From positions 1 through 63,319 of IMG/VR virus record IMGVR_UViG_3300044833_000023: DNA of 63,319 nucleotides. The stretch is one strand, 5' to 3'. The notes beneath the pieces are model-generated. The model saw only the letters and a program-made list of their open reading frames with translations. It ran no database searches and was not told the origin of the DNA. Positions 12,401-41,083 of this stretch are shown here, piece by piece. How positions within the stretch are numbered: position 1 is the first letter of the stretch; each line of letters starts with the position of its first letter. The DNA is from a virus. A program made the translations under genes and the position numbers.

Positions 12401-15400
12401 TTGGCGTGGTCGATCCAGGCTTGCCGCTGGCCCTTGTCATGTTCGAGCTTCTTGGCGTGGTCGGCGATGGCCTGTTCGTCATCCTGCTCTTTGTTGAACA
12501 GGTCGTGCATCAGCTTGTTGACGCCGACGCGGAGGCGCGGCTTCAGATGCGTGTTGGTTTCGTTGAACGCCGAGGCGTCGCTCATGGAGCCCAAGAAGCG
12601 CCCGCGCCACGCCTTCGCGGTGTTCTTCGGCGTGACGCGGCCGTTTGAAATCCATTTCGCGCCGCCCCCATAGGGGTTCGACGTTGCGAATTCGCCGAGG
12701 TAATGGTCGAGCGCGTGTATCCACTCGTGCGCCAGCGAGCCCGCGCCGTTGATCTTCGTCATGTTGATGACGGTGCGGTCAGCCTCGTAGTGCGCGGCGC
12801 CCGCGCCCTTGCCGCCCTTGCCGCGGGAGCCGAAGCCGATGGCGAGCGTGCCGTCGAGCGACATCGCCTTGGCGGGAAGATTGAGGATACGCGCGAGGTC
12901 GTGCAGCGCGTCAAAGGCGAGGTTGAGCACCTTCTGGCGTTCGTCGTTTGCCGCCCAGTTGCCGAACTCGACGCCACGGAAGCCGAAGGTGTCCTTGAAA
13001 TCGTCGGAGCCGACGTCGCGATCCTTGCGATAGTCCGGGCCGTCGCGGTTGATGGCGTCGAGATGCGGGCGGTTCGGCTCCTGTTCCTCAGAGCCGCCTT
13101 TGCTGATCTTGGCGTAGGCTTCCTTGGCTGCGGCTTCCGCGAGTTCGCGGGTGCCGAACTCTCCGACCTTTCCGCCGTTCTTGCGGCGAACGATCCACAC
13201 CTTCTCTTTGACCGCTTTCTTTTCGTAGTCGTATGGAGTGTAGGGATCGATCTCGAACAGCCGCTGCCACGGCTCCATGTTCGGGAAGCCTTTGGCGACG
13301 GCGCCTTCGGCGGTGCGAACGTCGGCGCCCATCACCGTGAGGGGATTGTTGCGGCTACCGCGCTGCCTAATCGCGGCGAGGACCGAATAACTGTTGGTGC
13401 CGAGCGCGGCGGAGACGGCCTGACTGACCTTCTTCATCTCATCGACGGTCTTCACCTTGGCGAATTCGTCGCGGATGGCTTTCAGGGCATCGAAGTAGTT
13501 GTCGCGATCTTCTTTGCTGACCGTATCGTTGTAGCGGTTGGTCGGCTTGACGGCGATGCGGTCGTAGACGCGCTTCATCAGCGCAGCCGCCACGGGCGCG
13601 ACGCCGCTATCGACGACGGCCGCATAATCCGGGCGCGGCCAGATGTTGTGCTTGGTGACGTTGGTATCAAGCTCGCCGCCGGTCATGCCGTCGAGTGCGG
13701 CCTTGGTCAGGCCGCCGGTCCATTGGTCCTTGCGCGCGCCGCCGATCTTCTCGCCAACGTCCTCGATCTTCTGCTTTTCCGGCTCGGGGACGGGCTCATC
13801 GACGGACGGCTTTTTTTCTTCTTCGGCCTTCTGGCGCCGCTTCGTCTCGCGGTCATGCAGTTGTAGCGCAGCGGTCAGAACGTCAACTTCCTGATCGCTC
13901 TCGGTTTTGCCGCGTTCCAAGATGTCCCGAGCCGAAGTAGCCATGGGGCTTGTGCGGTGCCATTTGTGCTCTTTGTCTTTGAGCGCAAATGTGAGGGCGG
14001 CTTTCTCGTTCGGCGTGAGGTTCGGGTCGCCTTCCTCTACAACGGTGTCGTTGGCATCTTCGGCGGCAGGCTGGTGTTCAGTGGCGTCGCCGGTTTTGTC
14101 CCCAGCGGTTTTGTTCCCGCGGGCGGCTGGCTTAGCGGTGCCGCCGCCTGCGGTTGAGCCATCGCCGGGCTTGCCTGTTTCGCCTTGTGCGCCATTTTCG
14201 CCGCCGCTCGCAGCGACCGGAGTTTCTGTTGCACTACCGGCGCCGACTTGCCCAGATGCGGGGCGTTCTTGCTCAGAAGGTGTGCCGCTGCCAGATGCCC
14301 CTTGGCTTCCGGGCTGTAGTAGTGTGTTGACTTCTTCGCCATAGGCTTGTTCCGCCTGCTGATGAGTGAGGAATTTCTGGCCGACGAGGTTCTCGATGAC
14401 GGCGTGGCCGAACGCAACGTGGGGCAGCATCCCCTCGTTCTCTGCGAGGATTTCCGCCGCGCGCGCGGTGTCTACCGGCAGAACGTGGTGATAGTCCTCG
14501 CCGAGCGCCGCCTCGATCTGGGCGTGATGCTCTTTCGTCGGCTCCGCGGTGACGGGCGCGGGCGGCATTACCTCGGCGCGGCCGATGGCGCCGATCGGCT
14601 GCGAGTGGTCGCCGTTGCGGAGCCAATCCTTGAATTCGTCCGGCGCCAGCGCCTTCATACCGCCGATGCGATCAGCGCCGCCGTCGGTGTACGAGTTCGC
14701 GTAGGCGTGAAGTGCCTCGATCGGGTTGCGGAACCCGGTCATGATCTTGTGTTCGTCGAATTCGCCCTTACCGCCAGCGTGGTGCTGGTCGATGACGAAG
14801 ACGTGCTGGCTGTCCGGATGCGCGCCGATGAAGACGTCGAGCGGTTCGCCGTCGGCGCCCGTCGTACCCTTGATGCGGCCGTACGCAACCGGCATCTTGA
14901 CTTCCCACGGCGTACCGTCTTGCTCGGTGCCCTTGCGGGTGTCGCCGACGCCGGTCTCCAGGCTGATCGAGTTCTTGCCGGTCAGCCCGAGATGCTCGAT
15001 CTCGGCGTGACCGTGCTTGAAGTTCGTTGCCGCGGCCTGCGGGTCGGTCGGGTCTTTCGCGACGACTTCGCTCGCCTTGAGCACATCGTCCGCAGAGCGG
15101 ATGTTGATGGGATTGTCGCGGGTGCCTGTGCCGGTCGTTTCGGCCGTGGGCTGCGGTACCGGCTTTTCGGCCGTATTTTGCTGGGCTTCTTGCTCTGGCG
15201 GTCGCTCGCTCGCCGATCCGCGCGCCATCGCCTCTTGAAACCGGCGCCGTCGCTCGGCCGGGGTCATGACCGCGATGTGAGCGTCTGTCCAGCCGGCGCG
15301 CTTCAGGCCCTCGCGCTCGGTCCGCTCGGTCGCGCTCTCGCCTTGCGGATTGAGCGGTTCTTCCTTGTTGTTGACGGGCGCTTCGCCTTGGCTGGTGTGC

Positions 15401-19790: not shown

Positions 19791-19947
19791 TGAGCGTCCT
19801 TGTCTGGGTGTAAGTGCCGGAAACGGTGAAGGCGTTGGCGATGTCGAGAAGATCGACTTCGGCGGAGGCGAGTTCGATGGCCTGCAACGCGGAGCGGATG
19901 GCCGGGTCTTGGACGAACCCGAGCCCGGTTAGATTGACGCGCCTCAT
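19699..19947 (-). CDS. Small conserved tail-region protein
   Basis: This 82-residue protein begins MRRVNLTGLGFVQDPAIRSA. ATG 19947 overlaps the preceding stop (ATGA) and is preferred over an in-frame start at 19974. Helix LQAIELASAEVDLLDIANAF is followed by strands and ANAVAFLATFIDDC. It lies between the DNA-stabilisation-like protein and the GNAT-like protein, suggesting a virion or assembly role. No named family is recognised. Confidence 0.65.
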   Translation of the reverse strand: MRRVNLTGLGFVQDPAIRSALQAIELASAEVDLLDIANAFTVSGTYTQTRTLNVTAPTLANAVAFLATFIDDCKRGGSNRST

Positions 19948-21746
19948 GAGCGGTTGCCGCTGTCTTGTATCCACGCCACGGGCTTGCCCCAGCGGAAGTA
20001 GCTGCCGAGCGAGGCGCAGGATGCGACCATGCCGATGTACCGGCCGGAAACTCTCATATCGATGGTGCCGCTATCGAGCGGCGTGACGATCTCGGTCTCG
20101 CTGTCCTCCTGGGCGGAGTCATTGAGCCGGTCAAAGGTGTTGAGCGTCAGCGAGATGTTGCCGATCTGTCCCAAGAAATCCGCGACGACATACTGCACGT
20201 CGAAATGACTACCGCCCTCGTTCAGAGCGTAAGGCGCCAGCGTGATGCTCCACGGCAGGATCGCGCCGTTGTCGTCGAGGCCGTTTTCGTGCTGGTAGAT
20301 GAAACCGTCGGTGCCGCCCATGTATGGACGGGTGTCGCCTTGGGTGAAGTGCGTCCCCGAGGTCCGGCCGAAGTTGAGCGGAGCCCAGCACTGGTTCTCG
20401 ATCGAATAGACCACGCCCAGCGTCGGGTTGGTCTGTCCGATGACGGTGTAGAAGAACCAGACTTCATTGTGCTGCGGGCTAAAGACCGCCGAGCACTGGT
20501 AGCCGTAGTCGGTCTTCAGGTTGTCGAAGACGTATTTGCGGATGTCCTCGACGTTCGGGATCGGCTGGACCGAGCCGTTGTACATCCAGAAGGTGTCTTG
20601 GCCCATCCAATAGGCTACGCCGCCGGCTGTGACCGCAGCGCCTGGCGCGATCAGCCCGCAGTCCTTCGAGATCATGCTCGAATTGTAGACGAAGGTTGAG
20701 CCGGTATATTGAAAGCGATAGAGCGCGGCATCGGTCCACACCAGCGTCACGAAGTCGGACAGCACGCGACCGGCAACCAGCTTGGTGCCTTCGGTCAGGG
20801 TACGGATGTTCGCGGTGTTCGCGGTGGCTGGCGTCCATACCGTGATGTCGCCCTGCGTACACCACGCGATCTGCATGTTGTCGAGCAGCGCGAAGATGAA
20901 GCGCTCCGGCGTCACCAGGGCGAACCGGCAATTGATCGGGAGCCCGGCGTCGGCCGAGATCAGCGTCGCCCTGCCCCATGGCTGCGCCGCGGTCGGGTCG
21001 AATTGATAGATCGAACCGCCATTGTAGGAGGCGATCAGCAGCTTGCCGAAATGATCCAGCGACCAGATGCGGGGCTCGATGAAGATGGTGGACGCGGTTC
21101 GCGCCGTGCCCCAGGTGCCGAGACCCCAACCACCAACGCCCCAGCCCAATCCGTAGACACCGATCTCAACGCCGACCGGGATTTCGTAGAAGAATTGAAT
21201 GGGAGCGGAGCCGCCACCGCCGGTGACGGTCGACGTCGCGTTCGAGGTAAAGACATAGGTGTAATGGTTGGCGTCGATGACGGTATTGACAACCGTCCCG
21301 CCCGGCATGGAGGGCGTGATGCCACCGATCGCGGTTGCGTTGAAAAGATAGATGAAGTCGCCGACATTGAGGCCATGCAGCGTGTGGTTGACGGTGACGA
21401 CCGGGCTTCCGCTGACGACCGAGAGCGGGTTGGCCCCGAGCGATCCGAGGGCTCGGTACGGGGTGATGTCGTTCTGTATCCAGCTTGAGTCGTAGGCATA
21501 GAGTTTTCGGTAGGTGCCGGCCGCCAGATAGTTGTTCTGCACGTTGTCGCGCCACGCATGGCTTGTGCGCGGCGTGCCGGAGGTAGGAGTAACTACCGAG
21601 CGGACATTGCCTCCGAGCTTCTGTGGCCGCCCCTTCACGAAGCGGACGTTGTTCGAGGCTATCCAGCGGCCTTCAGAGGCGCGCCCGGACTCGGTGAGCA
21701 CCACGCCCGGCGGAGGCGCGATCGGCAGCGGCGTCAGTGCCGACAC
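19944..21746 (-). CDS. Packaged-DNA stabilisation / tail nozzle protein (P22 gp10-like)
   Basis: The protein has 600 residues. It begins with GRASEGRWIASNNVRFVKGRPQKLGG-type sequence characteristic of the P22 gp10/Phage_stabilise group, followed by repeated beta-rich units with Trp/Gly motifs consistent with a beta-propeller nozzle. Residues about 115-190 carry an inserted domain (HTLHGLNVGDFIYLF) also present in the head-tail adaptor encoded at 23016. It should plug the portal-adaptor channel and connect it to the tail fibres. Confidence 0.75.
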   Translation of the reverse strand: MSALTPLPIAPPPGVVLTESGRASEGRWIASNNVRFVKGRPQKLGGNVRSVVTPTSGTPRTSHAWRDNVQNNYLAAGTYRKLYAYDSSWIQNDITPYRALGSLGANPLSVVSGSPVVTVNHTLHGLNVGDFIYLFNATAIGGITPSMPGGTVVNTVIDANHYTYVFTSNATSTVTGGGGSAPIQFFYEIPVGVEIGVYGLGWGVGGWGLGTWGTARTASTIFIEPRIWSLDHFGKLLIASYNGGSIYQFDPTAAQPWGRATLISADAGLPINCRFALVTPERFIFALLDNMQIAWCTQGDITVWTPATANTANIRTLTEGTKLVAGRVLSDFVTLVWTDAALYRFQYTGSTFVYNSSMISKDCGLIAPGAAVTAGGVAYWMGQDTFWMYNGSVQPIPNVEDIRKYVFDNLKTDYGYQCSAVFSPQHNEVWFFYTVIGQTNPTLGVVYSIENQCWAPLNFGRTSGTHFTQGDTRPYMGGTDGFIYQHENGLDDNGAILPWSITLAPYALNEGGSHFDVQYVVADFLGQIGNISLTLNTFDRLNDSAQEDSETEIVTPLDSGTIDMRVSGRYIGMVASCASLGSYFRWGKPVAWIQDSGNRS

Positions 21747-23015: not shown

Positions 23016-23906
23016 TTACGGGGTGTCCAATGTGATGTCGGCGCCGCGGTAAAGCAGGTCTTGCTCGACCGCGATCGACTGGATGAGGTTCGTCATGGCA
23101 CCGACGCTCTTGGAATACTCGGTGTCGTCCTTCATGAAGTCGGCCGCTGCGGCTTGGGTCGCGACGCGGACCAGCTTCGGGTAGCGGAGAGTGAGGAAAT
23201 TCGATGGGTTGGTCGCCGAGAGCAGCGCGGGCGCGCGGTAATAAAGCTGCTTGTAGGCTTTGGCGACATCGTGCGCGGTGTCGAAATGGACCGCCTCGCT
23301 CCAGATCGACCATCGCGAAGGTGTACTCGCAACCAGATTGTTCGCGGTGTAGGTCGGCGTTCCCCCGCCAGTGACGGCCGTGAGTGCGGCCGTATCCACG
23401 GTGTCGATCGTGAAGTTGTTGGCATCGACGACGGCGGAGACCGGGAACGTGCCATTGAGCGTGAACACGTCGACCAGCGTTGCGCCCGCGATGGTGATGG
23501 TCGAGCCCTGATTGATGCCGTGCGCGGTCTTGAGCACGTTGACGGTCGAGAGGCCGATCGCGGTCGTGAAGGGGTTGGCCGCGAAGGTTCCCGCGATCGT
23601 GTTGTCGTAATTGCGCGCCGCGAAAATATCGCTTTCGAGCTTGTGGCCGAGCCACATCCCGTCGGTGACATTGTAAAGCCGCCCCATCGGATCGAGGAAG
23701 CGAGCCGGCAGGGCGACCGAGCACTGGCCCACGGCCGCGCCGTAGGTCCACGATGTCCGCATTTCCCGGCAACGCAGCACCGAATAGATGAGCGACTGCG
23801 CTTCATCGAGGATCGTTCCGATATCGAGCTTGCCGTAGCCGACCCAATTGGCGATCGACCCTGGCGACCCTTTCGAGGCCGTCAGGGTCGCGTGGGTCAT
23901 CGGCAT
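23016..23906 (-). CDS. Head-tail adaptor (P22 gp4 / T7 gp11-like)
   Basis: The protein has 296 residues. A helical N-terminus (DIGTILDEAQSLIYSVLRCREM) and C-terminus (DDTEYSKSVGAMTNLIQSIA) frame a beta-rich middle, the usual build of podoviral adaptors under the portal. The middle (about 125-200) contains an inserted HG-x-x-x-G domain (AHGINQGSTITIAGATLVDV) related to one in the nozzle protein. Gene order adaptor, fibre, nozzle fits P22-like tails. Confidence 0.7.
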   Translation of the reverse strand: MPMTHATLTASKGSPGSIANWVGYGKLDIGTILDEAQSLIYSVLRCREMRTSWTYGAAVGQCSVALPARFLDPMGRLYNVTDGMWLGHKLESDIFAARNYDNTIAGTFAANPFTTAIGLSTVNVLKTAHGINQGSTITIAGATLVDVFTLNGTFPVSAVVDANNFTIDTVDTAALTAVTGGGTPTYTANNLVASTPSRWSIWSEAVHFDTAHDVAKAYKQLYYRAPALLSATNPSNFLTLRYPKLVRVATQAAAADFMKDDTEYSKSVGAMTNLIQSIAVEQDLLYRGADITLDTP

Positions 23907-24939: not shown

Positions 24940-25398
24940 TCAGTACCAGTCGATCGTCACTTCGCGGCGCGCGGTGCCGGCGGGAGCGCCGCCAACACCG
25001 AGAACGCCAGAGATGAAGAACGGGGTGTCCGCGGGAAGCCGGGCGGTTTCGAGAGCGACGTGGCTCGCGAAGTCGTTCAGCGCCGGCGGCAAAGAACCCG
25101 TGGCGCCCTGCGCGATGGCGCAGAGCGAGCGGGCTCGGACCGAAACGCCGGTCAGGTAGCCGAGGATCAGCGTGGTGCCGAGGCGGAAGCGCGCGTAGGT
25201 GAAGTCCGCCTGCGCGGTGCCTACCTGCACTTCCGGTACGGTGGTGGTGCCGACCATCGAGGCGGTGACCTCCACCGCGATGTCGCGGACCAGTCCCGTT
25301 TTACCGGGCGGTCCGACGAACTTCACCGACTCGGTGGCTGCACCGAAGGCCGAAGAAGGGATGACGTAGACTTCACGCTGCGGGGTATCGTAGCTCAT
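24940..25398 (-). CDS. Capsid-associated (decoration-like) protein
   Basis: The protein has 152 residues and is predominantly beta (REVYVIPSSAFGAATESVKFVGPPGKTGLVRDIAVEV). It contains no catalytic motif. It lies immediately after the major capsid gene and before a terminator, the usual place for a head decoration or stabilising protein. The role is inferred from context. Confidence 0.6.
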   Translation of the reverse strand: MSYDTPQREVYVIPSSAFGAATESVKFVGPPGKTGLVRDIAVEVTASMVGTTTVPEVQVGTAQADFTYARFRLGTTLILGYLTGVSVRARSLCAIAQGATGSLPPALNDFASHVALETARLPADTPFFISGVLGVGGAPAGTARREVTIDWY

Positions 25399-25423
25399 GG
25401 CTGTTGTTCCTTTCCCTTGAGCG

Positions 25424-26413
25424 TTAGGTCTGCGAGTCCCACATCACGACGCGCGCGTTGAGCGCATCGGGATGCACGAGACCGAAACCACCGAGGTAGT
25501 ACCAGGCGATGCCGCGGGAGCGGCCGTAGTCACCGGGGATTTTCGCGCGGATTTCCTCCGGCACGCAGACCGCCTCGGTAACGGTGTCGCCGCCCATGAA
25601 CAGAGCCCACGAGGACAGCGCGTTGGACCACGGAGCAGCGGTGCCGCTCCACGGGTCGTAGGTCGTCGAGTTGCCCGCGCCGCCCTTCGGGATGAAGGTC
25701 TGCTCGATGAACCGGAACGACTCGTAGCGCCCGATCTCGCCGTTGAAGATGTGGGCAAGGCCGGTCTCCGTGTACTGGTGGACCGTTTCGAGGGTGTTCT
25801 TGAACCCGCGATAGGTGGTGGGGTGGCTGATGGAGAGGTAGTCATCCGCCACATACGGAGGGATGTTGCGCTCCTTCATGGCGTCGCCCAGCGCCTTGAC
25901 GTGGCCGGTGCCCAACGCGATGTTGTTGGGCTGCGACGCGATGCCGTTGGTGTCGAGGGTGATCGACGTCACCTGGGCCGAGCTCGCGCTCGCGCGCAGC
26001 GGCGTCGACTTCATCTGCAAGTACGCTTCTATGTCAAAATACTTGCGAGCATCGTCCTTCAGCGTCTTGTCGATGATCGACACGACTTCGTGCTTCGCCA
26101 TGTCGGTCAGCTTGCCGGTGTACGGAACGGAGTTACCCGCCTCGAACACGGTCAACTGATGCTGGATGACGGAGAAGCCGCCCTCGGGCATCGACGTCAC
26201 TTCGCCGAGCCGACGGCCCTGCGAATTGATGATGCCGTAGACGTTCCAGTTGAACTTGTCGCCGCGGTTCAGGCCCTTTTCGGAGCCGTCCTGCGCGTCG
26301 CAAAGCTGCCGGAATTTGGTGAGCGGCTGGACCTGCTGACGAAGCACGTCGGACAACTCGTCCGAGTACATGAATCCGCCTTCCGCTGGTACAGCCCAAG
26401 ACTGGCCTGCCAT
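25424..26413 (-). CDS. Major capsid protein (HK97-fold)
   Basis: The protein has 329 residues. It begins MAGQSWAVPAEGGFMYSDEL and continues with an E-loop-like region (GDKFNWNVYGIINSQGRRLGEVT), the helix ATVFEAGNSVPYTGKLTDMA, and a C-terminal beta domain. It directly follows a scaffold-like gene and precedes a decoration-like gene, and it is of typical coat length. No protease is seen, consistent with P22-type scaffold recycling. Confidence 0.8.
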   Translation of the reverse strand: MAGQSWAVPAEGGFMYSDELSDVLRQQVQPLTKFRQLCDAQDGSEKGLNRGDKFNWNVYGIINSQGRRLGEVTSMPEGGFSVIQHQLTVFEAGNSVPYTGKLTDMAKHEVVSIIDKTLKDDARKYFDIEAYLQMKSTPLRASASSAQVTSITLDTNGIASQPNNIALGTGHVKALGDAMKERNIPPYVADDYLSISHPTTYRGFKNTLETVHQYTETGLAHIFNGEIGRYESFRFIEQTFIPKGGAGNSTTYDPWSGTAAPWSNALSSWALFMGGDTVTEAVCVPEEIRAKIPGDYGRSRGIAWYYLGGFGLVHPDALNARVVMWDSQT

Positions 26414-26452
26414 TTTCGGTATTCCTTATGGTGATGTGTGGGAGAGGTCGCT

Positions 26453-27706
26453 TTAAGCGACCGTCTGTCCGCGCTGCTGGCGCATCTTCATGATGGTCTC
26501 CGAGCGCGAGCGACCTTCGGTCGGACGTGCTTGAGCATCAGGACGCGGCGCCATACTGCGCGTGGGCTGGGTGGGCATTGCTGCTCGGCGCTCGGTGCGA
26601 TCCACGTTGACGACAACGCGGGGGGCGACCTTGGCTGCTGGCGGTTTGGGCTGCTCGGAAACGCCTTTCCACTTCAAGTATTCGCCCTTCGCGCCCTCCA
26701 AGAGGGCTTCGGCGGTCGATACTGAGCGGCCATTGATCCGGTAGAAGCGATGCCAGTTGGCAAGCTCTGCGGGGTTCTGAGGGATTTTCGATGCATCAAC
26801 ATCGCCGAGCTTTTCGATTTCCGCTCGGGTCAGGCGATAGACGAACTGCTCTATGGCCTGTGCCGCGATCGGATCGTTGGCGATTTCGGGGTTTGCGTCC
26901 GAGAAGGTTTTCAGGACCGTTTGGACGCGGGCGATGTCGTTCTTCACGAGCCGCCGCATCTGGCCTTCATCGGCTTCCTGTTCCGAGACGGTCTTCATGA
27001 CCTTCCGGATTTTGGCCGCCGCCTCTTTCGGGTCGCCGAACTGGATTTGCTCGATCGCTTCTTCGAGTTCGTCGGGGTGTTGACGAGCCTCGTCGGGATC
27101 GATGTCCTGTCCGTCGTTCTGCGTGCGCGAGTTCTGACCCTCGGGGTGTTGAGGGTCACGGCCTGCACGCTCGGCCTTGATCTGTTTTGCTTCCTGAAGG
27201 AGGTCACGGGCCTCGTCGAGGTAGCTGTCCGCAGCCAGGTTCTTCTGGGCCGCGGCGAGAATTTGGTCGTCCGTCATCTCGACGGCCTTGCCGCGCACCG
27301 TCACGGTGCGGGTCTTCGGCGCGTCGGGCTGGATAACAGCCTTCACATCCGGGACCAAAAGGTCAGGCGCGTCGGGCTCGGGCTCAAGCTGCTCGCGGCC
27401 AGCCTTGCCGTAGAGCATCTCCGGATCGTTCATATTGCCGTTGAACGGCACGTCGTCCTCGACGCTCTGGCGACGGAAGCGCTTCGCCATGTCGAGACGC
27501 GCCTGATCGGCAGGAGACATGTGGATCGGCTTGGGACGGGCGGGGCTGTCATCGTCTTCGGTGACGCGCGGCTGCGGACTGCCGTTATCGCCTTCTTCGC
27601 CGGTCGCGTCGTTGATGTCGGAGACGATCTCATCACCGGGGACGGTTCCAGCGGCTTCAGCCCGGGCGTTGGCTTCGGCCATCTGTTCGTCTTTGGTCAT
27701 ATTCAT
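26453..27706 (-). CDS. Capsid scaffolding protein
   Basis: The protein has 417 residues, highly charged and mostly helical or disordered. It has an acidic N-terminus (TGEEGDNGSPQPRVTEDDD), a central coiled region (LDEARDLLQEAKQIKAERAG; DELEEAIEQIQFGDPKEAAAK) and a basic C-terminal tail (SRSETIMKMRQQRGQ). Basic C-terminal helices of scaffolds such as P22 gp8 bind the coat. It lies directly upstream of the coat gene. Confidence 0.8.
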   Translation of the reverse strand: MNMTKDEQMAEANARAEAAGTVPGDEIVSDINDATGEEGDNGSPQPRVTEDDDSPARPKPIHMSPADQARLDMAKRFRRQSVEDDVPFNGNMNDPEMLYGKAGREQLEPEPDAPDLLVPDVKAVIQPDAPKTRTVTVRGKAVEMTDDQILAAAQKNLAADSYLDEARDLLQEAKQIKAERAGRDPQHPEGQNSRTQNDGQDIDPDEARQHPDELEEAIEQIQFGDPKEAAAKIRKVMKTVSEQEADEGQMRRLVKNDIARVQTVLKTFSDANPEIANDPIAAQAIEQFVYRLTRAEIEKLGDVDASKIPQNPAELANWHRFYRINGRSVSTAEALLEGAKGEYLKWKGVSEQPKPPAAKVAPRVVVNVDRTERRAAMPTQPTRSMAPRPDAQARPTEGRSRSETIMKMRQQRGQTVA

Positions 27707-28086
27707 GCGTCGTGATCCTGTGGGTGGATGCCGAACGCTTCAGCTTCCTGGCGCCCTTCATCGGTGGTTAAGATTTCTGCGAACTCGTCGGCGTCCTGCT
27801 CACGGAAGTAGACTTCCGCAGCGCGGCCTTCTTCGATGATCTCGGCGCACCAGCGCACGAGGTCGTCGTATCGGCGGACTTCGTTTTGAAATCCGCGAAC
27901 CTTTTCAATCTCGGTCGGGTCGATCATCACCAGGCCGACCATCGCGGCGGTCGCCTCGATCTTTGCCTTGCCGAGGATCGCCTTGATCGGCTGGAACGTC
28001 GGCCCCTTGTCGAGTTGGGCTTCAAGCTCAATGGAAACCGAAACGGCCCGCTGATAAGCGAGCCGTTCCATTGCTTCGGGTGTCAT
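27703..28086 (-). CDS. Hypothetical helical protein upstream of scaffold
   Basis: The protein has 127 residues, acidic and helical (YQRAVSVSIELEAQLDKGPTF; VRRYDDLVRWCAEIIEEGRA). Its stop overlaps the scaffold start (ATGA), so the two are co-translated. It may assist procapsid assembly. No family is recognised. Confidence 0.65.
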   Translation of the reverse strand: MTPEAMERLAYQRAVSVSIELEAQLDKGPTFQPIKAILGKAKIEATAAMVGLVMIDPTEIEKVRGFQNEVRRYDDLVRWCAEIIEEGRAAEVYFREQDADEFAEILTTDEGRQEAEAFGIHPQDHDA

Positions 28087-28099
28087 GTGGGACTTTCGG

Positions 28100-29518
28100 T
28101 TAGTCGGTTAGCTCCAGCATCGCCGTGATGTCGGCGATGTCGGCTTCGTCCTGGCGCTGACGTTCGTCTTCGTCATCGAGGTGCCGCAGCATGTGCTCAA
28201 TGTCGGTCGCGTCCATTGCTTCGTGGATGCTGGCTTCGATGCCGCGCAGATCGCGCTCGGCGTATTCAACGTGGTCGATCGGCGACGTTTCGCGCGGGGC
28301 GAGGAACGTCTCGATCCGGAGCGAAGGCGGCAGAACGATCTTTGGCTTGACCGGCTCCGGCTTGCGCGGGCGCTTTCCGACCGGCTCAAGGCCGCGCTTG
28401 CGACCGCCGCCGCCCGAGATGACCGTTTGGAGCAAACCAGCAACGCCGATGCCGGCGGCCTGTGCCAGCGTGACGGAGACGTTGATGCGATTTGGACCGA
28501 GCCAGTTGGCAACGCCGACGCCAGCCACTCCGAAAATCGCCACGTTCTGTGACGGAACCTGTCCGACCATACCGGCAACGCCGATGCCGACCGCGGGAGC
28601 CAGCACAACCGTGACCGTGTAACTCGACGGTCCGCGCGCAAGACCGACGCCAACGGCGCCGGAGATGACCGCGCCCGGCTGCGGTGTGACCGATCGCGCG
28701 ATGCCAACGCCTGCCGCTTGCGTGATCGGCGGGTTCGACGAGAGCGCGATGGTCGGCGTGCCGACGATGCCTATGCCCGCCGCTTGCGGGATGCCAACAG
28801 AGACTGCCGCGACAACCGCGCCGGTAACGCCAACGCCAGCGGCTTGCGCCAGTACCGCCGCGGGATTGGCGACAACCGATCGCGCAAGACCCGTGCCGGA
28901 GACGCCCGCAAAGGTGAACCCGAAAACCTGTCCTGACAGCGTGCCGACGATGCCGGTTCCCGCCGCCTGCGAGACTGAAACTGAGACCGTTTGGCTCGCA
29001 ACAAGACCTCGCGCAACACCTGCACCTGCGGCCTGACTGATCGCCGCCGCAGGATTGGCGACCAGTCCCCTCGCAAGTCCAGTTCCAATTGCCTGCGCCG
29101 CGTTGCCTCCAGGCGCTGCCGTGGCAGCGTGAGCAACACCCGTTCCTGATGCCTGCGCCAGCGTGGCCGTGACGGCCGGCGTGGGGCCGCGAGCGACGCC
29201 CGTACCCGAGACGCCCGTGAGAAGACCGGGAGCGATTGCCTTTGCGACGCCGGTGCCGATCGCGCTTGCGAGCGTGACGACCTGTACGCTCGGTGTCAGA
29301 ACTCCAGCAACGCCGACACCAGCGGCTTGCGTCGGCGCCCCCGCGTCGATGACGGTTAGACCTCGGGCAACTCCCGCGCCTGCCGCTTGCCCCGTAGTTT
29401 TGGACGGAGAGGGTGTGACCGATCGCGCGATGCCAACGCCTGCCGCTTGCGTGGCCTGCACGCCAGCATTGGCGCTGATCTGCCCGAGGGCAAACCTGCC
29501 GAATGCGTCAAAGAACAT
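28100..29518 (-). CDS. QAAGxGxA repeat protein
   Basis: The protein has 472 residues. Residues about 20-370 are some 17 imperfect repeats of 19-24 residues built on QAAGVGVAR plus a variable beta-like stretch ending in Pro/Val/Thr. The C-terminal 100 residues are different: a basic patch (RKRGLEPVGKRPRKPEPVKP) and acidic helices (DEDERQRQDEADIADITAML). It is encoded directly after the tailspike. The regular repeats suggest a beta-solenoid or glycine-zipper fibre. DNA repeats (for example 28683-28724 and 29412-29453, 42 identical bases) allow expansion and contraction. No known family is recognised. Confidence 0.7.
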   Translation of the reverse strand: MFFDAFGRFALGQISANAGVQATQAAGVGIARSVTPSPSKTTGQAAGAGVARGLTVIDAGAPTQAAGVGVAGVLTPSVQVVTLASAIGTGVAKAIAPGLLTGVSGTGVARGPTPAVTATLAQASGTGVAHAATAAPGGNAAQAIGTGLARGLVANPAAAISQAAGAGVARGLVASQTVSVSVSQAAGTGIVGTLSGQVFGFTFAGVSGTGLARSVVANPAAVLAQAAGVGVTGAVVAAVSVGIPQAAGIGIVGTPTIALSSNPPITQAAGVGIARSVTPQPGAVISGAVGVGLARGPSSYTVTVVLAPAVGIGVAGMVGQVPSQNVAIFGVAGVGVANWLGPNRINVSVTLAQAAGIGVAGLLQTVISGGGGRKRGLEPVGKRPRKPEPVKPKIVLPPSLRIETFLAPRETSPIDHVEYAERDLRGIEASIHEAMDATDIEHMLRHLDDEDERQRQDEADIADITAMLELTD

Positions 29519-29535: not shown

Positions 29536-32028
29536 TCAGGCGCGCTCATACCAGCCGGTAAAGGTAATCCTTTGGCCGGTCACGATCGTCGCCGAGTTGA
29601 TGTAGTTCGTTGCGACCATCGTTGAGGCGTTCGCTACCACGGTGCCCATCCACACTGCACCTGTAGTGGCGGACTCGCGCCCCGGCAAAACCCAAAATGA
29701 TGTAGCGTTCAGGGACGGGAACGGCAGCGACACACTTGTAAGCGATCCGCCCGTGAACGTCCCTGAAATCGAGACATCGATCGTTATTTCTACTTTTTTG
29801 CCCTTGGTGCGGTAGCGCGCAGCCGCTGTGCCCACCGCAGTCCCGGTTGCCTGACCGCAGACAATAGTTGGCGTGAAGGCAACGAAACCGTCAGTATAAA
29901 CGCTTGTCGCGCCGCTTATGCTGACCAGACCGGACGTGCCGGCCGACCCCATCTGTGTGTTGATGGTGTTCCCGTTTGGCATCCCGTTGCCGCCGTTCAC
30001 TTCGGCCACCGCAAAGGTCATGTTGGCGCCGGGTGACAGAAACGAATTCGTGTCCACCAAAATGCCGGACACGTTGCTGCCGGACAATTCGATGCCGGAC
30101 GTATGGGCGGCAAGCTGGTTAGAGCCGACGATCGTGTTTCCGCCAATGGTGACATTGGTGTATGTCGCGCCCGCGCCACTGCCGAATATAGCGATCGACG
30201 AAAAACCGCTATTGGTAAAGGTATTACCGCTTACATCGCCATCTGCGATGGCGTGAACACCATCATCGGCCATCGACATCCCGAAGTCGTAACAGGACGT
30301 GTTGCCGTTCCCGGCTACGTTCCAATAGCAATAGTTGCCATGAACCTTGAAGTTCGGCCCGGTGGCTCCGCCTGCAACGATCGCCTCCCGGCCGGAATAC
30401 TTGATGACGTTATTGGTTATTACGCCGCCACTGTCCTGCACCGAAATGCCCCACGATCCTCCGAATAGAAACACCAAATTGGAGGAAATAGTCTCGCCAA
30501 ACCCGCCAAGGCAATTGATGCCGGCCCCCCACATATACCCGCTGCCGGTCGGCGTGGCCGTTAGAGCAACGGCTCCGACCTGACCGGAAATCGCCGTGAC
30601 AGCATTGCCGCTGATTAGCGTCTCAGCATTAGCGTCACTAAAGATGCCAACATTCCACCAACCTGAGATCAGGTTGCCGATGATGGTCGGATTGCTGCAC
30701 GACACGACCCGCAGCGCGCGAGCGCCAGCAAATTCGTTGCCGAAAATAACTGCCTTGCCGCTGGCAGAAAGCGTGAACCCATCGTAAGCCATTGAGTTGG
30801 CCGCGACGATTTTCATTCCCGACATCGAGAAGCGGATAGTCCCACCCATCGCCGCCGATACACCGGTGACAAGACCGTCCGAAGTCTGCGCAAACGATAC
30901 TATGGCAGACGTCCCGGCCCCTGCTCCCGTCACGCTTTGGACCGTCGAGGGTATTTGCAGCCCGCGAACGTTGTAGGTTCCGGCCGGAAATGCAAGGGCG
31001 ACATTCGCCGCCATCGCTGTATTGATTGCGGCGGTGTCGTCGTGTTGAACAAGCGCTCCAGCAGCCGCGGTGGTCGCGTTGGCCGCGAGCGTGAGTGCCG
31101 TCGTGCCGGCGCCCGACGAGATCGTGGTAGCCAGCCATCCGGGCACGGCGCTTGCTGGCGGCGTCGTGGGGATGCCAACAATCGTCTGCGTCGGTATCCC
31201 TGTGTCGAAAATGCTGGTCCCGAGAAAGCACCCCAGGAGAACGTAGGCGCCGCCGCTGGTGCTGCGCCAAACCACCGTTGCCAGCGGCGTACCCGTGCCA
31301 ACGGTCCAGGTGATCTGGTTCATGGCGATGCCAGAGGTCCCAGACAGGTAGGTTCCGAGCGTGGCGAAGCCGGTCGCGATCGTGGTCGCGGCGGTGGCCG
31401 CTGTCAGGCCGCCCTGATTATCGAGGCTTGCAATTTTATATGCGTAGGTCGTCGCCCCCGTGGTGTTGATCGGAGCGACCGCAGTAAGGGTTGGAGCGCC
31501 GACCGTCGGCGAGGCTCCGGCGCCAAAAACCAAAATCCCTTGATTGTTGGCAAAGTCGAGCGCGCTTGCGAGCGTTAGAGCGTTAGACGCTGCGCCAATC
31601 GTCCCTGTCGTCGTCTGCGCCGAGCCCGAGGCGCCATACCCCTTGACGGTTACAGCGTCGTCGGCACCGATGTTTGCGCGGGCCTGCGCCTGCTGCGCCG
31701 CCGTCAGCGTCATCACATCATCGAACAGCAGTACGTCGCCCGGAAAAACCGTGATGCCAACTTGCGGGATAGTCGAGAACGAAACCGTTCCTCCCGTCGA
31801 CGAGAACGAAACAACGCGCGTCAACGTGCCCGTCCCCGACGTCCAGACGCCAGAACCAAACTCCCACTGTGAGAGGTCGGCGCTTTCGGCGCGGTATCGG
31901 TAAGTCTTGCCGTTCACCATCGGATAGGCCGACGGCGCCATGAAGCCGGCGACGGCCGCGGAATAGACAAAGCTCCCAGCGCCGGTCGATGCCGGGGTAA
32001 ATTTGACTCCGAGGGCGAGGCTCGCCAT
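29536..32028 (-). CDS. Tailspike / tail fibre with right-handed beta-helix
   Basis: The protein has 830 residues. The N-terminal portion (about 1-160) resembles a particle-binding region. Residues about 325-700 have the pectate-lyase-like beta-helix signature: HDDTAAINTAMAANVALAFPAG followed by coils with NPTIIGNLISGWW, TISSNLVFLFG, GVITNNVIKYSGREAIV and YTNVTIGGNTIVGSNQ. The C-terminus (about 730-830) is a beta cap. Start 32028 overlaps the preceding stop (ATGA); the longer frame is spurious. It probably binds and perhaps degrades a host surface polysaccharide. Catalytic residues cannot be assigned. Confidence 0.78.
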   Translation of the reverse strand: MASLALGVKFTPASTGAGSFVYSAAVAGFMAPSAYPMVNGKTYRYRAESADLSQWEFGSGVWTSGTGTLTRVVSFSSTGGTVSFSTIPQVGITVFPGDVLLFDDVMTLTAAQQAQARANIGADDAVTVKGYGASGSAQTTTGTIGAASNALTLASALDFANNQGILVFGAGASPTVGAPTLTAVAPINTTGATTYAYKIASLDNQGGLTAATAATTIATGFATLGTYLSGTSGIAMNQITWTVGTGTPLATVVWRSTSGGAYVLLGCFLGTSIFDTGIPTQTIVGIPTTPPASAVPGWLATTISSGAGTTALTLAANATTAAAGALVQHDDTAAINTAMAANVALAFPAGTYNVRGLQIPSTVQSVTGAGAGTSAIVSFAQTSDGLVTGVSAAMGGTIRFSMSGMKIVAANSMAYDGFTLSASGKAVIFGNEFAGARALRVVSCSNPTIIGNLISGWWNVGIFSDANAETLISGNAVTAISGQVGAVALTATPTGSGYMWGAGINCLGGFGETISSNLVFLFGGSWGISVQDSGGVITNNVIKYSGREAIVAGGATGPNFKVHGNYCYWNVAGNGNTSCYDFGMSMADDGVHAIADGDVSGNTFTNSGFSSIAIFGSGAGATYTNVTIGGNTIVGSNQLAAHTSGIELSGSNVSGILVDTNSFLSPGANMTFAVAEVNGGNGMPNGNTINTQMGSAGTSGLVSISGATSVYTDGFVAFTPTIVCGQATGTAVGTAAARYRTKGKKVEITIDVSISGTFTGGSLTSVSLPFPSLNATSFWVLPGRESATTGAVWMGTVVANASTMVATNYINSATIVTGQRITFTGWYERA

Positions 32029-32681
32029 CAGGTGATCTGCAACACCGCGGTTCCGACCGCCGCCACTGGCATGACGACGGTGAAGGTGCCGGCAGAGACC
32101 GTCTGCGTGCCGCCGAAGTCGTGGACGGAAACACCCAAGGTCGCGATCGGACCGTTCTGGATGGTGTTGTAGATCATGCAGCCCGTGGTCGAGAACGTCG
32201 CCGTGGTCCAAGACGGGTTGGGCGAGAACGATGCGATGGCCGAGGGCGAGGATGCCGACGGATCGACGTTGGTCAGCGCGGTGCCGCCAGCGACATAGCC
32301 GGTGCCGGTGATTTCATCGGCGTTGCCGGTGACGTCGGTGTAGTTGGTCGAGGCGGCCGAATAAGTGCCGGTCGGCGTCACCTTGATGAGCGCCATCTTG
32401 AAGATGTCGCCAACCACGGTGACGGTGCCGAGCGCGCCGGTCGAGGCGATGTTGGTCTGGATCGAGGTCGAGGACAGGATGCGCGAGACGAACGTACTCG
32501 CCGCAATGTTGGTGCCGGACAGCGCGCAGCCGACATAGATGCCGGTCAGCGCGGAGACCGCGGTCCACGTCGCCGTGGAAGTACCGGTCGCGGTGAAGGT
32601 GCGCGACTGGCTGAAATGGTGGGCGCCGTTGAACAGGTCTCGCTTGAAGGAAGCAAGCATCGCGGTGGTAATGCCGGCCAT
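32028..32681 (-). CDS. Beta-rich virion protein next to tailspike
   Basis: The protein has 217 residues. A short helix (AMLASFKRDLFNGAHHFSQ) is followed by Thr/Ser/Gly-rich strands (RTFTATGTSTATWTAVSAL) and a C-terminal VHDFGGTQTVSAGTFTVVMP. This pattern is common in phage fibre-adjacent structural proteins. It lies upstream of the tailspike and overlaps it by four bases, so it may be the spike connector. Confidence 0.65.
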   Translation of the reverse strand: MAGITTAMLASFKRDLFNGAHHFSQSRTFTATGTSTATWTAVSALTGIYVGCALSGTNIAASTFVSRILSSTSIQTNIASTGALGTVTVVGDIFKMALIKVTPTGTYSAASTNYTDVTGNADEITGTGYVAGGTALTNVDPSASSPSAIASFSPNPSWTTATFSTTGCMIYNTIQNGPIATLGVSVHDFGGTQTVSAGTFTVVMPVAAVGTAVLQIT

Positions 32682-33127: not shown

Positions 33128-35620
33128 TCAGTGGTCTTGGATGTGGAATGAAGAAGCCCGGCCATCGGCGCCGCGACTGGCGATCGTGACCGTGCGGGAC
33201 TTCGGCTTCTTCAAAGCGGTTTCGAGGTTCTGTTGTTCGCTCGCCTGATCGGCGACTTGCTGTTGGCCGGCGTCCGCGGCGGGTACGCCGTGAGAGCCGA
33301 TCTCCGTCGGGGTCAGCCCGTCATTGCCGGCGCCGACGTTGGTTGCTCCGGGCACAAGGCCCTTCGTCGCGGCCTGCGCCGGGTCTTGCGGGACGCCGGG
33401 CTTGCCATCCGCTCCCGGTGCCTGGATCGGCGAGCCGTCAGGGTTGAGACCTTGCGCGGCATTCTTGGCGCCCGCGATTGCCGAACCGTGCTGATGCCCC
33501 ATGTCCTGCGCGCGGCCGACTTGATCGACGTGATCCAGATGCTGCTGGAACTGATCGTTGACCGCCTGGTCCTCGATCTCCCGTTGGCCGAGACCGACCT
33601 TGGCCGCAGCCGCGAGACCCGTGAGAATGACGTTCTTGCCGCGAGCGCGATTGAGCTCGGCTTCGGACTTGAGCTTGTCCTGTTCGAGCGGAGCCATCGC
33701 GTTCGGCGCTGGCGTGCCATCCTGAAAGAAGCGAGCCCCGCCATCGCGATAGCCGACCGCGCCAAAGACTTCCGTGATGAAGGCTTCCGCGTTGATCTCG
33801 CGCTTGCCGGACTGGAAGTCCTTTGACTGCTGAAGGATTGGGGTGACGACGCTTACCGCGTCTTGCAGCTTCGCAAGACGCTGCGCCGGGTCGCCGGAGC
33901 CCAAGCCCACGTTGCAGGCGATGGTGACTTCGTTCTCCAGAAGCTCGTCGGTGATCTCGTTGATGCCGTGCTTCTGGAGCAGCTTGGCCTTGTTGCCGCA
34001 GATGCCGAGAATGATCTTGTCGCTCTCGTAGAACTGCTCCAGGCGAACGAGTTGGGCGAGCACCTTCTCGACGTAGGTCTCGATCCAGATGCGAATGTCG
34101 AATTCCTGCACCGAGTTGGCCGCGCCGGCGGCGAGCTTGAGGCCGCCAAGCGTCTTGCCGACTGAATTGGACTGCGAGACGGTGCCGTAATTCTGCTGGC
34201 CCGCGATGTCGTCGAAGTCGAGGTCGATCTCCTTCTTGAGGTTCTCGACCGCCGCTCCGATGTCAGGCGGGCGATCCCACGTCACGTCTTCGGGCGAGTT
34301 CACCATGATAGCGGTGCCCTGGCCGCGCTTCTTCAGCGCCTCAAGGTCCACTTGCCGCCCTCGAACAACCTTGGCGACGGGCATCACGGACTGCTTCACC
34401 GCGTCGAGCGTCAGATTTTGCAGGTCGTTACCCTGCTGCTGGAGCATCTGCCAGCTTTCGGCCGGCGACATCGGGAAGATGCGGAACGCCTCGAAGGCGC
34501 CGTAGCCGAGAGCGACCGGGCGCTCCCCGAATTGTTCGGGGTAGACTTCTTCTGTCGGCCGAGGGTCGGTCAGAAGATGCCTGCCGCCGACGGACAGGAA
34601 CGTCCAGTCCTCGCCGGCGGTGCGAATGAAGCTCTCGTAGACCCAGATGACGTCGAACGTCTTGCCTGTCTGGGTCTCATCGTAGCGGTCGAGCCCCTGC
34701 TCGCGCGCGCGCCGGATGGCTTCCATGTCGGCCCGGGCTGATGCCGCGACGGCCTTCAGGTCGGTGACGGACAGGGCCTTCCAAGGGTTGCGCGGGTCAG
34801 CCTGTTTGCGCCTGATCTCGTCGATCCGCATCGGGAACTTGAGATGCAGATACGCCGCGTCCTGCGCGGGGTTGGTCCAGTCCGCGGCCGGGTCGATGGT
34901 AAAATTCTCCGGCGGGAACAGCATGACGTCGGGACGGTCAACGATCGGCTTGTAGACGTCGCGCACTTTCTCGACTTCGGCTTCGTCGGCCGGGTCGTCC
35001 CTAAACTTCTCGGTGCCGTGCTTCTTGACCTCCAGCTTCCAATACTGCTTGGAGAGGCAGATACCGGTCAGCATCGACGTCTGCCGCGCGCCCATCGCGA
35101 CGTGAAACCATGGCAGCGCGGCCTTGCCGGACGATCGTCCGGTTCGATAGTTGACCAGCGCCTGCATCAGATCGGCCGACGCGCGCTGTCCAGCGTCGCC
35201 TTCGTCGCCAGGCGACGTGCTGATGGCGTCCACTGATCCGAACAGCGAAGCCGCGACGGCCGCCATGTCCTTGCGGATGGCGCCCCGGGTCTTCGGAATG
35301 AACAGCTTGGAGCGGTTCTTGTAGTCGCCCGTGGTGTATTTCGAGCCTACGAAGTGCTCCTGATGGAACGCCCGGTAGACGCGGGACCACGATTTTCGGT
35401 TGACCTGAGACTGGTAGAGAGCGGCTTGCGCCTCGCTCTCGACGACCATTTTCAGGAAGTCGTCGTCGCTCGGCTTGGCGTCGAAGTCTTCTTCCTCGCC
35501 ATCCAAGTCCTCGCGTGCGGCGTCGCCGGTCGCGGCGTCGGACGCTTGCTGGTACAGGTCTTTGCCGACCGGCATCGGATCATCGAGGCCGTCTTCACCA
35601 GGCGGCGTGAAGCGAAGCAC
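33128..35620 (-). CDS. Portal protein
   Basis: The protein has 830 residues, the length class of P22-type portals. The N-terminus is acidic. The core (from about 95) shows TTGDYKNRSKLFIPKTRGAIRK, LFPPENFTIDPAADWTNPAQDAAY and a clip/stem region with long helices (LDFDDIAGQQNYGTVSQSNS). The C-terminal part (about 640-800) is Gln/Ala/Gly-rich and could form the barrel. A GTG start at 35620 directly follows the upstream stop (TAAGTG). It forms the dodecameric DNA channel. Confidence 0.85.
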   Translation of the reverse strand: MLRFTPPGEDGLDDPMPVGKDLYQQASDAATGDAAREDLDGEEEDFDAKPSDDDFLKMVVESEAQAALYQSQVNRKSWSRVYRAFHQEHFVGSKYTTGDYKNRSKLFIPKTRGAIRKDMAAVAASLFGSVDAISTSPGDEGDAGQRASADLMQALVNYRTGRSSGKAALPWFHVAMGARQTSMLTGICLSKQYWKLEVKKHGTEKFRDDPADEAEVEKVRDVYKPIVDRPDVMLFPPENFTIDPAADWTNPAQDAAYLHLKFPMRIDEIRRKQADPRNPWKALSVTDLKAVAASARADMEAIRRAREQGLDRYDETQTGKTFDVIWVYESFIRTAGEDWTFLSVGGRHLLTDPRPTEEVYPEQFGERPVALGYGAFEAFRIFPMSPAESWQMLQQQGNDLQNLTLDAVKQSVMPVAKVVRGRQVDLEALKKRGQGTAIMVNSPEDVTWDRPPDIGAAVENLKKEIDLDFDDIAGQQNYGTVSQSNSVGKTLGGLKLAAGAANSVQEFDIRIWIETYVEKVLAQLVRLEQFYESDKIILGICGNKAKLLQKHGINEITDELLENEVTIACNVGLGSGDPAQRLAKLQDAVSVVTPILQQSKDFQSGKREINAEAFITEVFGAVGYRDGGARFFQDGTPAPNAMAPLEQDKLKSEAELNRARGKNVILTGLAAAAKVGLGQREIEDQAVNDQFQQHLDHVDQVGRAQDMGHQHGSAIAGAKNAAQGLNPDGSPIQAPGADGKPGVPQDPAQAATKGLVPGATNVGAGNDGLTPTEIGSHGVPAADAGQQQVADQASEQQNLETALKKPKSRTVTIASRGADGRASSFHIQDH

Positions 35621-38999: not shown

Positions 39000-39599
39000 T
39001 CAATCGACCATTCCCGCGGACTTCTTGAAACGATCTATCGCATCACGCACCGGGGTCGGCTTGTTCACCGTGCCCTCAATGACGCGGGGATCGCCGTTCT
39101 GCGGGGCCTGATCCGTTCCGCCGACGTGCTTGACTTGCGACGCCTCAGTAATCGCGTGTAGCAATCTAGCAACGTCGCCCGGAGACTGGAGGGTCAACGG
39201 CCCGATCATCGCGGCGAGTTCTTCGCCCACAACGATCCCGGCAATCAACCCAACCTGCTGCATCCTCGCCTGATTTTCGGCAACGGTGCAGAGGTACAAC
39301 TCGTCTATTCGCGCCAGCCGGCGCTCGACCATGGTGGTCACGTCTTGCATGGCGGCCTCGACCACTTCCTTCGTGGGAGGCGTCTTCGGTTTCTTGGGGG
39401 CCGTTTTCTTTGTGACCACCAGCGACCTCTCGGCCTTCTTTACGCTCGGCTCGGCCCATTTGTTCTTCTTGAGCCGTTGGACGGCCTTGTAGTTTATGGC
39501 GAAGCCCTTCGTCACCAAGATCGCAACGACCTTGGGCGCGCTCGGGTTGACGGTGGCCTCCCACGTCGCCCTGACCAATGCTGCCGATGGCTTCTTCAT
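39000..39599 (-). CDS. Terminase small subunit-like DNA-binding protein
   Basis: The protein has 199 residues. The basic N-terminus has a helix-turn-helix-like sequence (VVAILVTKGFAINYKAVQRL) followed by a Lys/Pro-rich linker and a helical oligomerisation region (VEAAMQDVTTMVERRLARID). It lies immediately before terL and ends one base before the terL GTG. The role is assigned by position and build. Confidence 0.7.
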   Translation of the reverse strand: MKKPSAALVRATWEATVNPSAPKVVAILVTKGFAINYKAVQRLKKNKWAEPSVKKAERSLVVTKKTAPKKPKTPPTKEVVEAAMQDVTTMVERRLARIDELYLCTVAENQARMQQVGLIAGIVVGEELAAMIGPLTLQSPGDVARLLHAITEASQVKHVGGTDQAPQNGDPRVIEGTVNKPTPVRDAIDRFKKSAGMVD

Positions 39600-40321
39600 G
39601 TGAGGCCGGCCGGGATCGTCGCCGGGCCTGCGCTCGCATCGGCCTGTAGAATAGGTGCCGCAGCCGGTGGAGCGTCCCTTCTCACACCGGACTGCGGCGG
39701 TGCCTGCTCAGTTACGGGCGGCACACTCGCGGGCGGGGACGTCGCTGCTGTCTGAATTGGTTCGCCGTAGGATGATGGCGGCTTGGTGTCGGTCTCGACC
39801 GGCTCGCCGTAGCTGCTCGGTAGCACCTGCGGTCTGGTATCGAAGGTCTTGGCGCGCTTCTCGACATCGGCCATGACGGACCGATTGAGTGCGCCGACGG
39901 TGCCAGCCTTCGCAAAGTGCGGGTTTTGCGCCATCTCGTTCGGTGTGAACACGGCGTCGACGGGCGTCTGCGGGTCCATGCCCATCATCCTCGCAGCGCG
40001 CGCGCCGCCGAAATGGTGACCGGCGTATGCTTCAGCGTCGGTCGGTTGACGGCCGAGAACGGTCGCCATCTCGCCCTTTACGTCCTTGATGAAGCCGGTC
40101 CAAGCCTTCGCCTGGGCGTATGGATCGGCACTGTTGCCGGCGCCGTAGGCCATCCGGTGATCGCCGCGCATCTGAAACACACCAGCGATGGTCCTGCTCG
40201 CGCGCGCCTGCGGATTGAAGGCGCTCTCACGTTGGGCAATCGCCAGCGCGTACTTCGGGTCTACGCCGCCCTCACGGGCCGCCTTGACGATGGCGGCCTT
40301 GACGGCTTCGACGTCGGTCAC
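39596..40321 (-). CDS. SLT-type lytic transglycosylase, virion-associated
   Basis: The protein has 241 residues. Residues 1-130 carry the soluble lytic transglycosylase fold: GVDPKYALAIAQRESAFNPQ with candidate catalytic Glu32, then SRTIAGVFQM and AYAGHHFGGARA. The C-terminal tail contains two SSYGEP motifs, which recur near the N-terminus of the giant polyvalent protein. It probably opens peptidoglycan during DNA ejection. It overlaps the small terminase gene (ATGA), so it heads the late operon. Confidence 0.82.
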   Translation of the reverse strand: MTDVEAVKAAIVKAAREGGVDPKYALAIAQRESAFNPQARASRTIAGVFQMRGDHRMAYGAGNSADPYAQAKAWTGFIKDVKGEMATVLGRQPTDAEAYAGHHFGGARAARMMGMDPQTPVDAVFTPNEMAQNPHFAKAGTVGALNRSVMADVEKRAKTFDTRPQVLPSSYGEPVETDTKPPSSYGEPIQTAATSPPASVPPVTEQAPPQSGVRRDAPPAAAPILQADASAGPATIPAGLT

Positions 40322-41008: not shown

Positions 41009-41083
41009 TGGAGCCCGAGGACAGAGTTGAACTGCCGACCCGCTGTTTACAAAACAGCCGCTCTACCACTGAGCTACTGGGGC
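41009..41083 (-). tRNA. tRNA-Thr (anticodon UGU)
   Basis: This 75-base cloverleaf includes an encoded CCA. The acceptor GCCCCAG/CTCGGGC has one C-C mismatch. The D arm is GCTC-AGTGGTA-GAGC, the anticodon arm GCTGT-TTTGTAA-ACAGC with TGT at 34-36, and the T arm GGCAG-TTCAACT-CTGTC. G1-C72 and C2-G71 fit Thr identity. It decodes ACA, a rare codon in such GC-rich genomes. It lies between early and late genes, far from the integrase, so it is cargo, not the attachment target. Confidence 0.85.

Follow-up and report, generated by a model that had tools for sequence, protein, structure and literature searches.

A gene for a glycine-rich repeat protein of 472 residues lies immediately beside the tailspike gene of an uncultivated virus, and the question that it raises is what such a protein does for the virus. 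The stretch of DNA analysed here (the window) makes up a single virus record of IMG/VR, 63,319 bases long. The nearest named phages by its major capsid protein are Escherichia phages HelliStehle, Pondi and PTXU04 and a Vibrio phage group, at ~46% identity. Given that the portal and adaptor match SU10 models, that a phrog_3287 nozzle-type protein is present and that a terminase is encoded, the virus is a podovirus by gene content, and sequence comparison relates it to Escherichia phage PTXU04. The phrog_3287-type protein of another locus, L119, matches a Paracoccus phage gene annotated as nozzle.

PTXU04 (Xuquatrovirus) shares with the window a capsid ~46% identical and the gene order portal, small gene, scaffold position, capsid. 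Unlike in the window, however, its portal-position gene directly precedes the small gene, and the repeat-protein cassette is absent. In the window the gap between the portal and the 127-aa gene holds four genes (143 aa, 217 aa, tailspike and repeat protein), the last of which begins 17 bases past the stop of the gene before it. That neighbour had been called a tailspike in the first-pass annotation, a label that suits it: the product is tailspike-like, with a weak parallel beta-helix match below the cut-off of that model. The coordinates are collected in the table.

Table. Features of the repeat-protein gene and of its surroundings in the window.
Feature	Position	Strand	Remark
Repeat protein gene	28100..29518	-	ATG start, 472 aa; positional relatives known
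N-terminal peptide MFFDAFGRFALGQIS, residues 1-15	29474..29518	-	class also in L001, L010/L165 and L166 (other contigs, virion types)
17 repeat units, residues 21-367	28418..29458	-	GxGx[AVT] core every 17-23 residues
42-base copy in unit 1	29412..29453	-	identical to the unit 13 copy
42-base copy in unit 13	28683..28724	-	identical to the unit 1 copy
SGGGG hinge and basic proline-rich segment, residues 368-416	28271..28417	-	conserved in A2; L003 DNA similarity stops inside, at 28354
C-terminal acidic helix, residues 417-471	28106..28270	-	AlphaFold2 helix, best blocks pLDDT 82-90; DEADIAD motif conserved
Tailspike-like fibre gene, 830 aa	29536..32028	-	shared fibre N-terminal domain
217-aa cassette gene	32028..32681	-	phrog_644; same family precedes the fibre in L147
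127-aa gene	27703..28086	-	position conserved; 75.6% identical in L003
Probable scaffold, 417 aa	26453..27706	-	by position: same place as the annotated SU10 scaffolding gene
Major capsid protein, PTXU04-like	25424..26413	-	sequence matches
Portal	33128..35620	-	SU10_portal 7e-27
Adaptor	23016..23906	-	SU10_adaptor 2e-7
Nozzle-type protein	19944..21746	-	phrog_3287 5.6e-44

Elsewhere in the window, a 4,523-aa protein (3406-16977, minus strand) has DarB-like antirestriction, methyltransferase and minor-head-type PHROG matches and is probably, by resemblance, a polyvalent protein like PTXU04_00025; a knock-down screen found PTXU04_00025 to be needed for infection (PMC11879866). A Transglycosylase SLT domain (39596-40321, minus strand) lies upstream of the terminase, and a tRNA-Thr (TGT; 41009-41083, minus strand) upstream of the terminase and structural block.

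The repeat protein has a tripartite architecture of short N-terminal peptide, repeats and C-terminal part. It had been described as a protein of 17 units, and it does contain 17 GxGx[AVT] cores, against a mean of 0.69 and a maximum of 5 in 20,000 residue shuffles of the repeat block; the self-identity of the block peaks at lag 20. Successive cores are 20, 20, 21, 17, 20, 20, 20, 22, 21, 20, 20, 22, 20, 21, 22 and 23 residues apart, so that most spacings (20-23) agree with the unit length of 19-24 residues proposed at first, and one unit, of 17, falls outside it. The C-terminal part is as distinct and as basic-acidic as had been supposed, the last 100 residues containing 11 R, 5 K, 11 D and 13 E against 9 R, 2 K, 1 D and 0 E in the 347 residues of the repeats. 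Units 1 and 13 contain the identical copies of 42 bases, and the two units use the same codon at 14 of 15 shared residues, compared with 353 of 929 (38%) for all other registered unit pairs. Their nucleotide identity therefore goes beyond what protein constraint alone would give, and a recent duplication or conversion of units is the simplest account of it, in keeping with the recent repeat exchange that the first-pass annotation had proposed.

That annotation had recognised no family, and neither do the databases. The window protein matched no Pfam or PHROG family at E up to 1 and no PDB sequence, and its one NCBIfam match, to a serine-rich model (E 5e-4), scored 17.5 bits against a cut-off of 650. 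Searches by tblastn of 50,697 named-phage records, with a low-complexity filter that may hide repeats, returned nothing for the window protein or for the repeat proteins of L007 and L088; megablast with 20 kb of the window likewise found no named phage. In the openly licensed literature searched, the peptide string FDALGRLALG was found in no paper, and nothing fitting was seen among the papers listed for repeat-bearing tail proteins and for Bradyrhizobium phage virions, some of which concern fibre or collagen-like proteins of other kinds.

Relatives are found instead by position. A capsid search yielded 80 loci, and in the nearest of them the gene before the 127-aa homologue often shares the plan of the window protein: the N-terminus is short and leads into repeats, then come an SGGGG hinge and a proline-rich basic stretch, and the end is acidic, for example DEADIADVIAFLQ. 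In L009, L013, L014, L016 and L023 the third gene of the simple chain is something else or poorly read. By weight matrix the window has 17 units, and the relatives at least 8 (L004), 7 (L005, L007), 5 (L003, L022) or 2 (L010), these, the 5 of L003 among them, being lower bounds because the unit finder missed degenerate units. L006 and L019 keep the peptide and the C-terminal end around differing middles; L004, L007 and L022 are without the N-terminal peptide, a point against the connector reading developed below. At L027, L030 and L063 the slot upstream of the 127-aa homologue holds another repeat type, W..PWSEPVR with a LGGGGGWYLPDPTRPP hinge, and this SEPVR-type repeat has no named-phage match. 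Searches with profiles of the C-terminal part and of the 127-aa protein and with a two-sequence profile added few loci. A capsid profile matched 0 of 6 and 0 of 397 bacterial genomes (G001 being in both sets), and since the sets held no known-positive genome these zeros show little.

Exchange of parts is seen in a close relative, L003, whose capsid protein is 91% identical to that of the window and whose scaffold-position and 127-aa proteins are each 75.6% identical. DNA similarity between the two, at 78%, spans 25060-28354 and stops inside the repeat gene where the C-terminal part starts; the N-terminus and repeats fall outside it, and the upstream gene of L003 is a different one. The C-terminal parts of the two repeat proteins are 63% identical. 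L003 has thus kept the C-terminal end while having another N-terminus, another tail gene and far fewer repeats than the window. The expectation that the length of the repeat protein can vary is borne out by the same pair, with 17 units in the window and 5 clear units in L003.

The N-terminal peptide extends the comparison well beyond this line of phages. The pattern GFDAxGRxAxG occurs in 61 viral stretches and 11 times in bacterial genomes, where six matches hold up when read (four of them in Bradyrhizobium and one each in a Xanthobacteraceae and a Lysobacterales MAG). In nearly all of the viral proteins repeats come after the peptide, most of them GSYALTG-type; at least one match, L086, seems to be due to chance. 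Marker genes divide the loci into three virion types, one with a phrog_3287 nozzle and SU10-type adaptor, one with a P22-type portal and Phage_capsid_3, and the PTXU04-like one, and the peptide class is common to all three. Because several loci overlap (L099 is the L006 contig, L101 and L158 are L003, L120 is L019, L145 is L007, L165 is L010, and several others are near-identical), all counts are of loci and not of independent phages.

With its peptide, its 17 tandem units and a fibre-domain gene upstream, the window protein belongs to a large unnamed phage set defined by a constant N-terminal peptide, exchangeable repeats and a C-terminus that follows virion type. The other members (L084-L157; soil phages and Bradyrhizobium prophages) resemble it in peptide class, in repeats of ~20-24 residues and in their place after a fibre with the same domain, but mostly carry GSYALTG-type repeats and have other C-termini. 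No common origin of the GxGxA and GSYALTG repeats was detected, the hhalign probability of 0.05 lying among those of reversed and shuffled controls (0.03-0.11). One GSYALTG-type relative has a single named-phage match, to EBPR siphovirus 2. The gp72 of that phage (L160, 4437-7196) resembles the set in its GSFxLTG-type repeats and its tail gene region; nearby are a gene with the label 'similar to tail protein' and gp74, which to the eye begins much like the fibre domain. Unlike the window protein, gp72 joins its repeats on one chain to a 510-residue phrog_8917 domain, and the phage is a siphovirus by record name. As none of 11 tested repeat proteins matched a PHROG and none of 11 a Pfam family above its curated cut-off (10 proteins being in both lists), an entire class of proteins that are likely to be appendage components still lacks a name.

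The C-terminus of the repeat proteins follows virion type. Tryptophan-rich ends occur at 28 loci with a phrog_3287 nozzle and at one more with another marker; EExLLL ends at nine loci of the P22-portal type, three with a nozzle and three unmarked; DIADIL ends accompany capsid or scaffold genes of the PTXU04-like kind in eight rows (five distinct contigs) and in L005, with one further row unmarked. In this typing 11 rows are 'other' and nine are truncated, and L005 was typed EExLLL by the expression although it ends DIADIEAMLELLD.

From these comparisons the window protein probably serves the cell-binding apparatus as a spacer that can be exchanged. The tail-appendage context assumed at first reading is supported. 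The specific form that we favour, and in which we place about even confidence, is a structural tail-appendage connector in which the repeats act as a spacer of variable length and whose gene closes an exchangeable fibre cassette. What we infer here is its presence in the virion, the partner of each end, the spacer role and the fold: the N-terminal peptide would pair with the class of N-terminal domain borne by the fibre or tailspike of the gene just upstream, the C-terminal helix would fit the virion body of the phage line, and the 17 repeats between them would form a spacer rich in glycine, low in charge and probably of beta structure, in which repeat type and number could change with both ends untouched.

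The polarity of such a connector is called into question by the nozzle class. Among its tryptophan-rich C-termini (26 distinct ones, mostly from phrog_3287 loci within L084-L157), 117 of 122 intervals between tryptophans are of 10 residues, and 20 of the 26 have six tryptophans. In SU10, W839, W847 and W857 of a loop of the nozzle gp17 form a quasi-threefold star that holds the trimeric short tail fibre (PMC9509320), and we confirmed these residues in the sequence. The tryptophan-rich class alone shares with this dock, by analogy, a regular tryptophan spacing near 10; the SU10 loop, in contrast, is on the nozzle chain itself, and no sequence homology to SU10 was shown. Tryptophan-rich ends are, by this analogy, possibly a tandem (double) version of the SU10 star, and the arrays suggest that proteins of the nozzle class grip a fibre by the C-terminus and not by the N-terminus. 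In the window protein the last 100 residues are free of tryptophan and the gene's own frame holds no tryptophan triad, so that the features of an SU10-type dock are lacking.

Predicted structure bears on a different reading, in which the protein is a second, independently docking fibre or shaft, with the repeats as shaft and the C-terminal helix as a trimerisation or tip element. In the AlphaFold2 models of the window protein and of the L007 protein, one long C-terminal helix reaches usable confidence, and short strands are drawn in the repeats; a repeat shaft followed by a terminal helix is a common fibre plan. Structure prediction was the check proposed for the beta-solenoid fibre suggested at first, and poor predicted order in the repeats, which together with absence from virions was to refute that first reading, was indeed seen: pLDDT is below 50 over nearly all window repeats and ~41-53 in those of L007, with whole-chain means of 46.5 and 53.2, respectively, from shallow nine-row alignments and monomer modelling. 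Because a homotrimeric shaft is hard for a monomer model, these low-confidence models neither support nor exclude a beta fibre, and disorder also fits them. What argues against an independent fibre is the C-terminus, which is the conserved part (as in L003) and follows virion type, the opposite of a variable receptor-binding tip, and profile searches recognised no receptor-binding domain. We consider this reading somewhat unlikely.

The constancy of the upstream fibre gene is the next matter, as it may reflect either pairing or common transfer. Of the 45 anchor loci that have at least 2.5 kb of upstream sequence, 43 gave a same-strand match to a fibre N-terminal domain HMM no more than 4 kb upstream (39 of 41 once the five anchor loci among its 14 seeds, which include the window fibre, are set aside), as did 50 of the 61 anchor loci overall. 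This HMM replaced a fibre-motif regular expression that missed clear cases (28 of 45 anchors against 147 of 816 random positions). The domain also lies within 4 kb upstream of 558 of 1140 positions (49%) drawn at random from these loci, since the loci are short and have a single fibre gene each; the 43 of 45 thus shows constant company and not exact adjacency. Among the 50 fibre-anchor gaps, 18 are directly adjacent (≤100 nt), 22 are wide enough to take a small gene and 10 are wider still. L003 has the peptide and, upstream of it, no match to the HMM. The fibre domain itself matched nothing below E 0.01 among SU10 gp16, gp12, gp13 and gp17, and the first 120 residues of the window fibre matched no named phage; those of the L147 fibre matched Caulobacter phage Seuss.

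Peptide and fibre also co-occur by subtype. All four loci with the peptide subtype M[FI]FDAFGR (the window, L010, L001 and L166) have MASLALGV[KR]F fibres, which by reading none of the 58 other pairs has. L001, of another virion type than the window, shares both subtypes, and the fibre predicted for L166, the sole new contig, was present, the prediction having been noted in the same step as the search. Distances between peptides correlate with distances between fibre domains over all pairs (r 0.27, P 0.0025) and, weakly but above permutation, across virion classes (r 0.18, P 0.035), where the classes are crude, 'other' meaning neither tryptophan-rich nor in the PTXU04-like list. Such co-occurrence can arise by joint transfer of linked genes without contact, and the repeat proteins might be passengers of a mobile tail cassette: the genes are near neighbours that travel together, and the correlation across virion types is weak. 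The peptide is nevertheless kept while repeats and C-termini exchange across virion types, which suggests constraint on the peptide itself, and we regard linkage alone as an unlikely explanation.

On the other side, the repeat gene adjoins the 127-aa, scaffold-position and capsid genes, and its repeat block is basic with a single acidic residue, as might suit an assembly or ejection factor (a chaperone for the fibre, or a protein carried inside the head and then released) and not an external spacer. In the nozzle class, however, the gene lies between fibre and nozzle (L119, L152) and not beside the capsid gene, and repeat type and number vary freely, unlike those of an enzyme or chaperone; we judge such a factor improbable. 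A membrane-active glycine-zipper rod, the other form suggested at first, would suit the low charge and high Gly/Ala/Val content but is very improbable and is not borne out, with nine GxxxG motifs against 10.0 expected from shuffles (SD 2.65), proline in 14 of 16 linkers and only 4% of 19-residue windows above a Kyte-Doolittle mean of 1.6.

The structural connector that we favour would have a wider consequence, which we put forward tentatively and hold to be doubtful at present. Several short-tailed virion lines may share a two-ended connector whose N-terminus matches the fibre domain class, whose C-terminus matches the virion line and whose variable repeats set the stand-off or flex of the tailspike; this would amount to a plug-in code that lets devices for cell binding pass from one phage body to another, unrelated one. 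The GFDAxGRxAxG set is common in soil phage contigs and Bradyrhizobium prophages. If the proposal is true, it would explain how fibre cassettes can pass between phages whose portals, capsids and nozzles are unrelated, and the peptide could serve to identify such cassettes in uncultivated phages.
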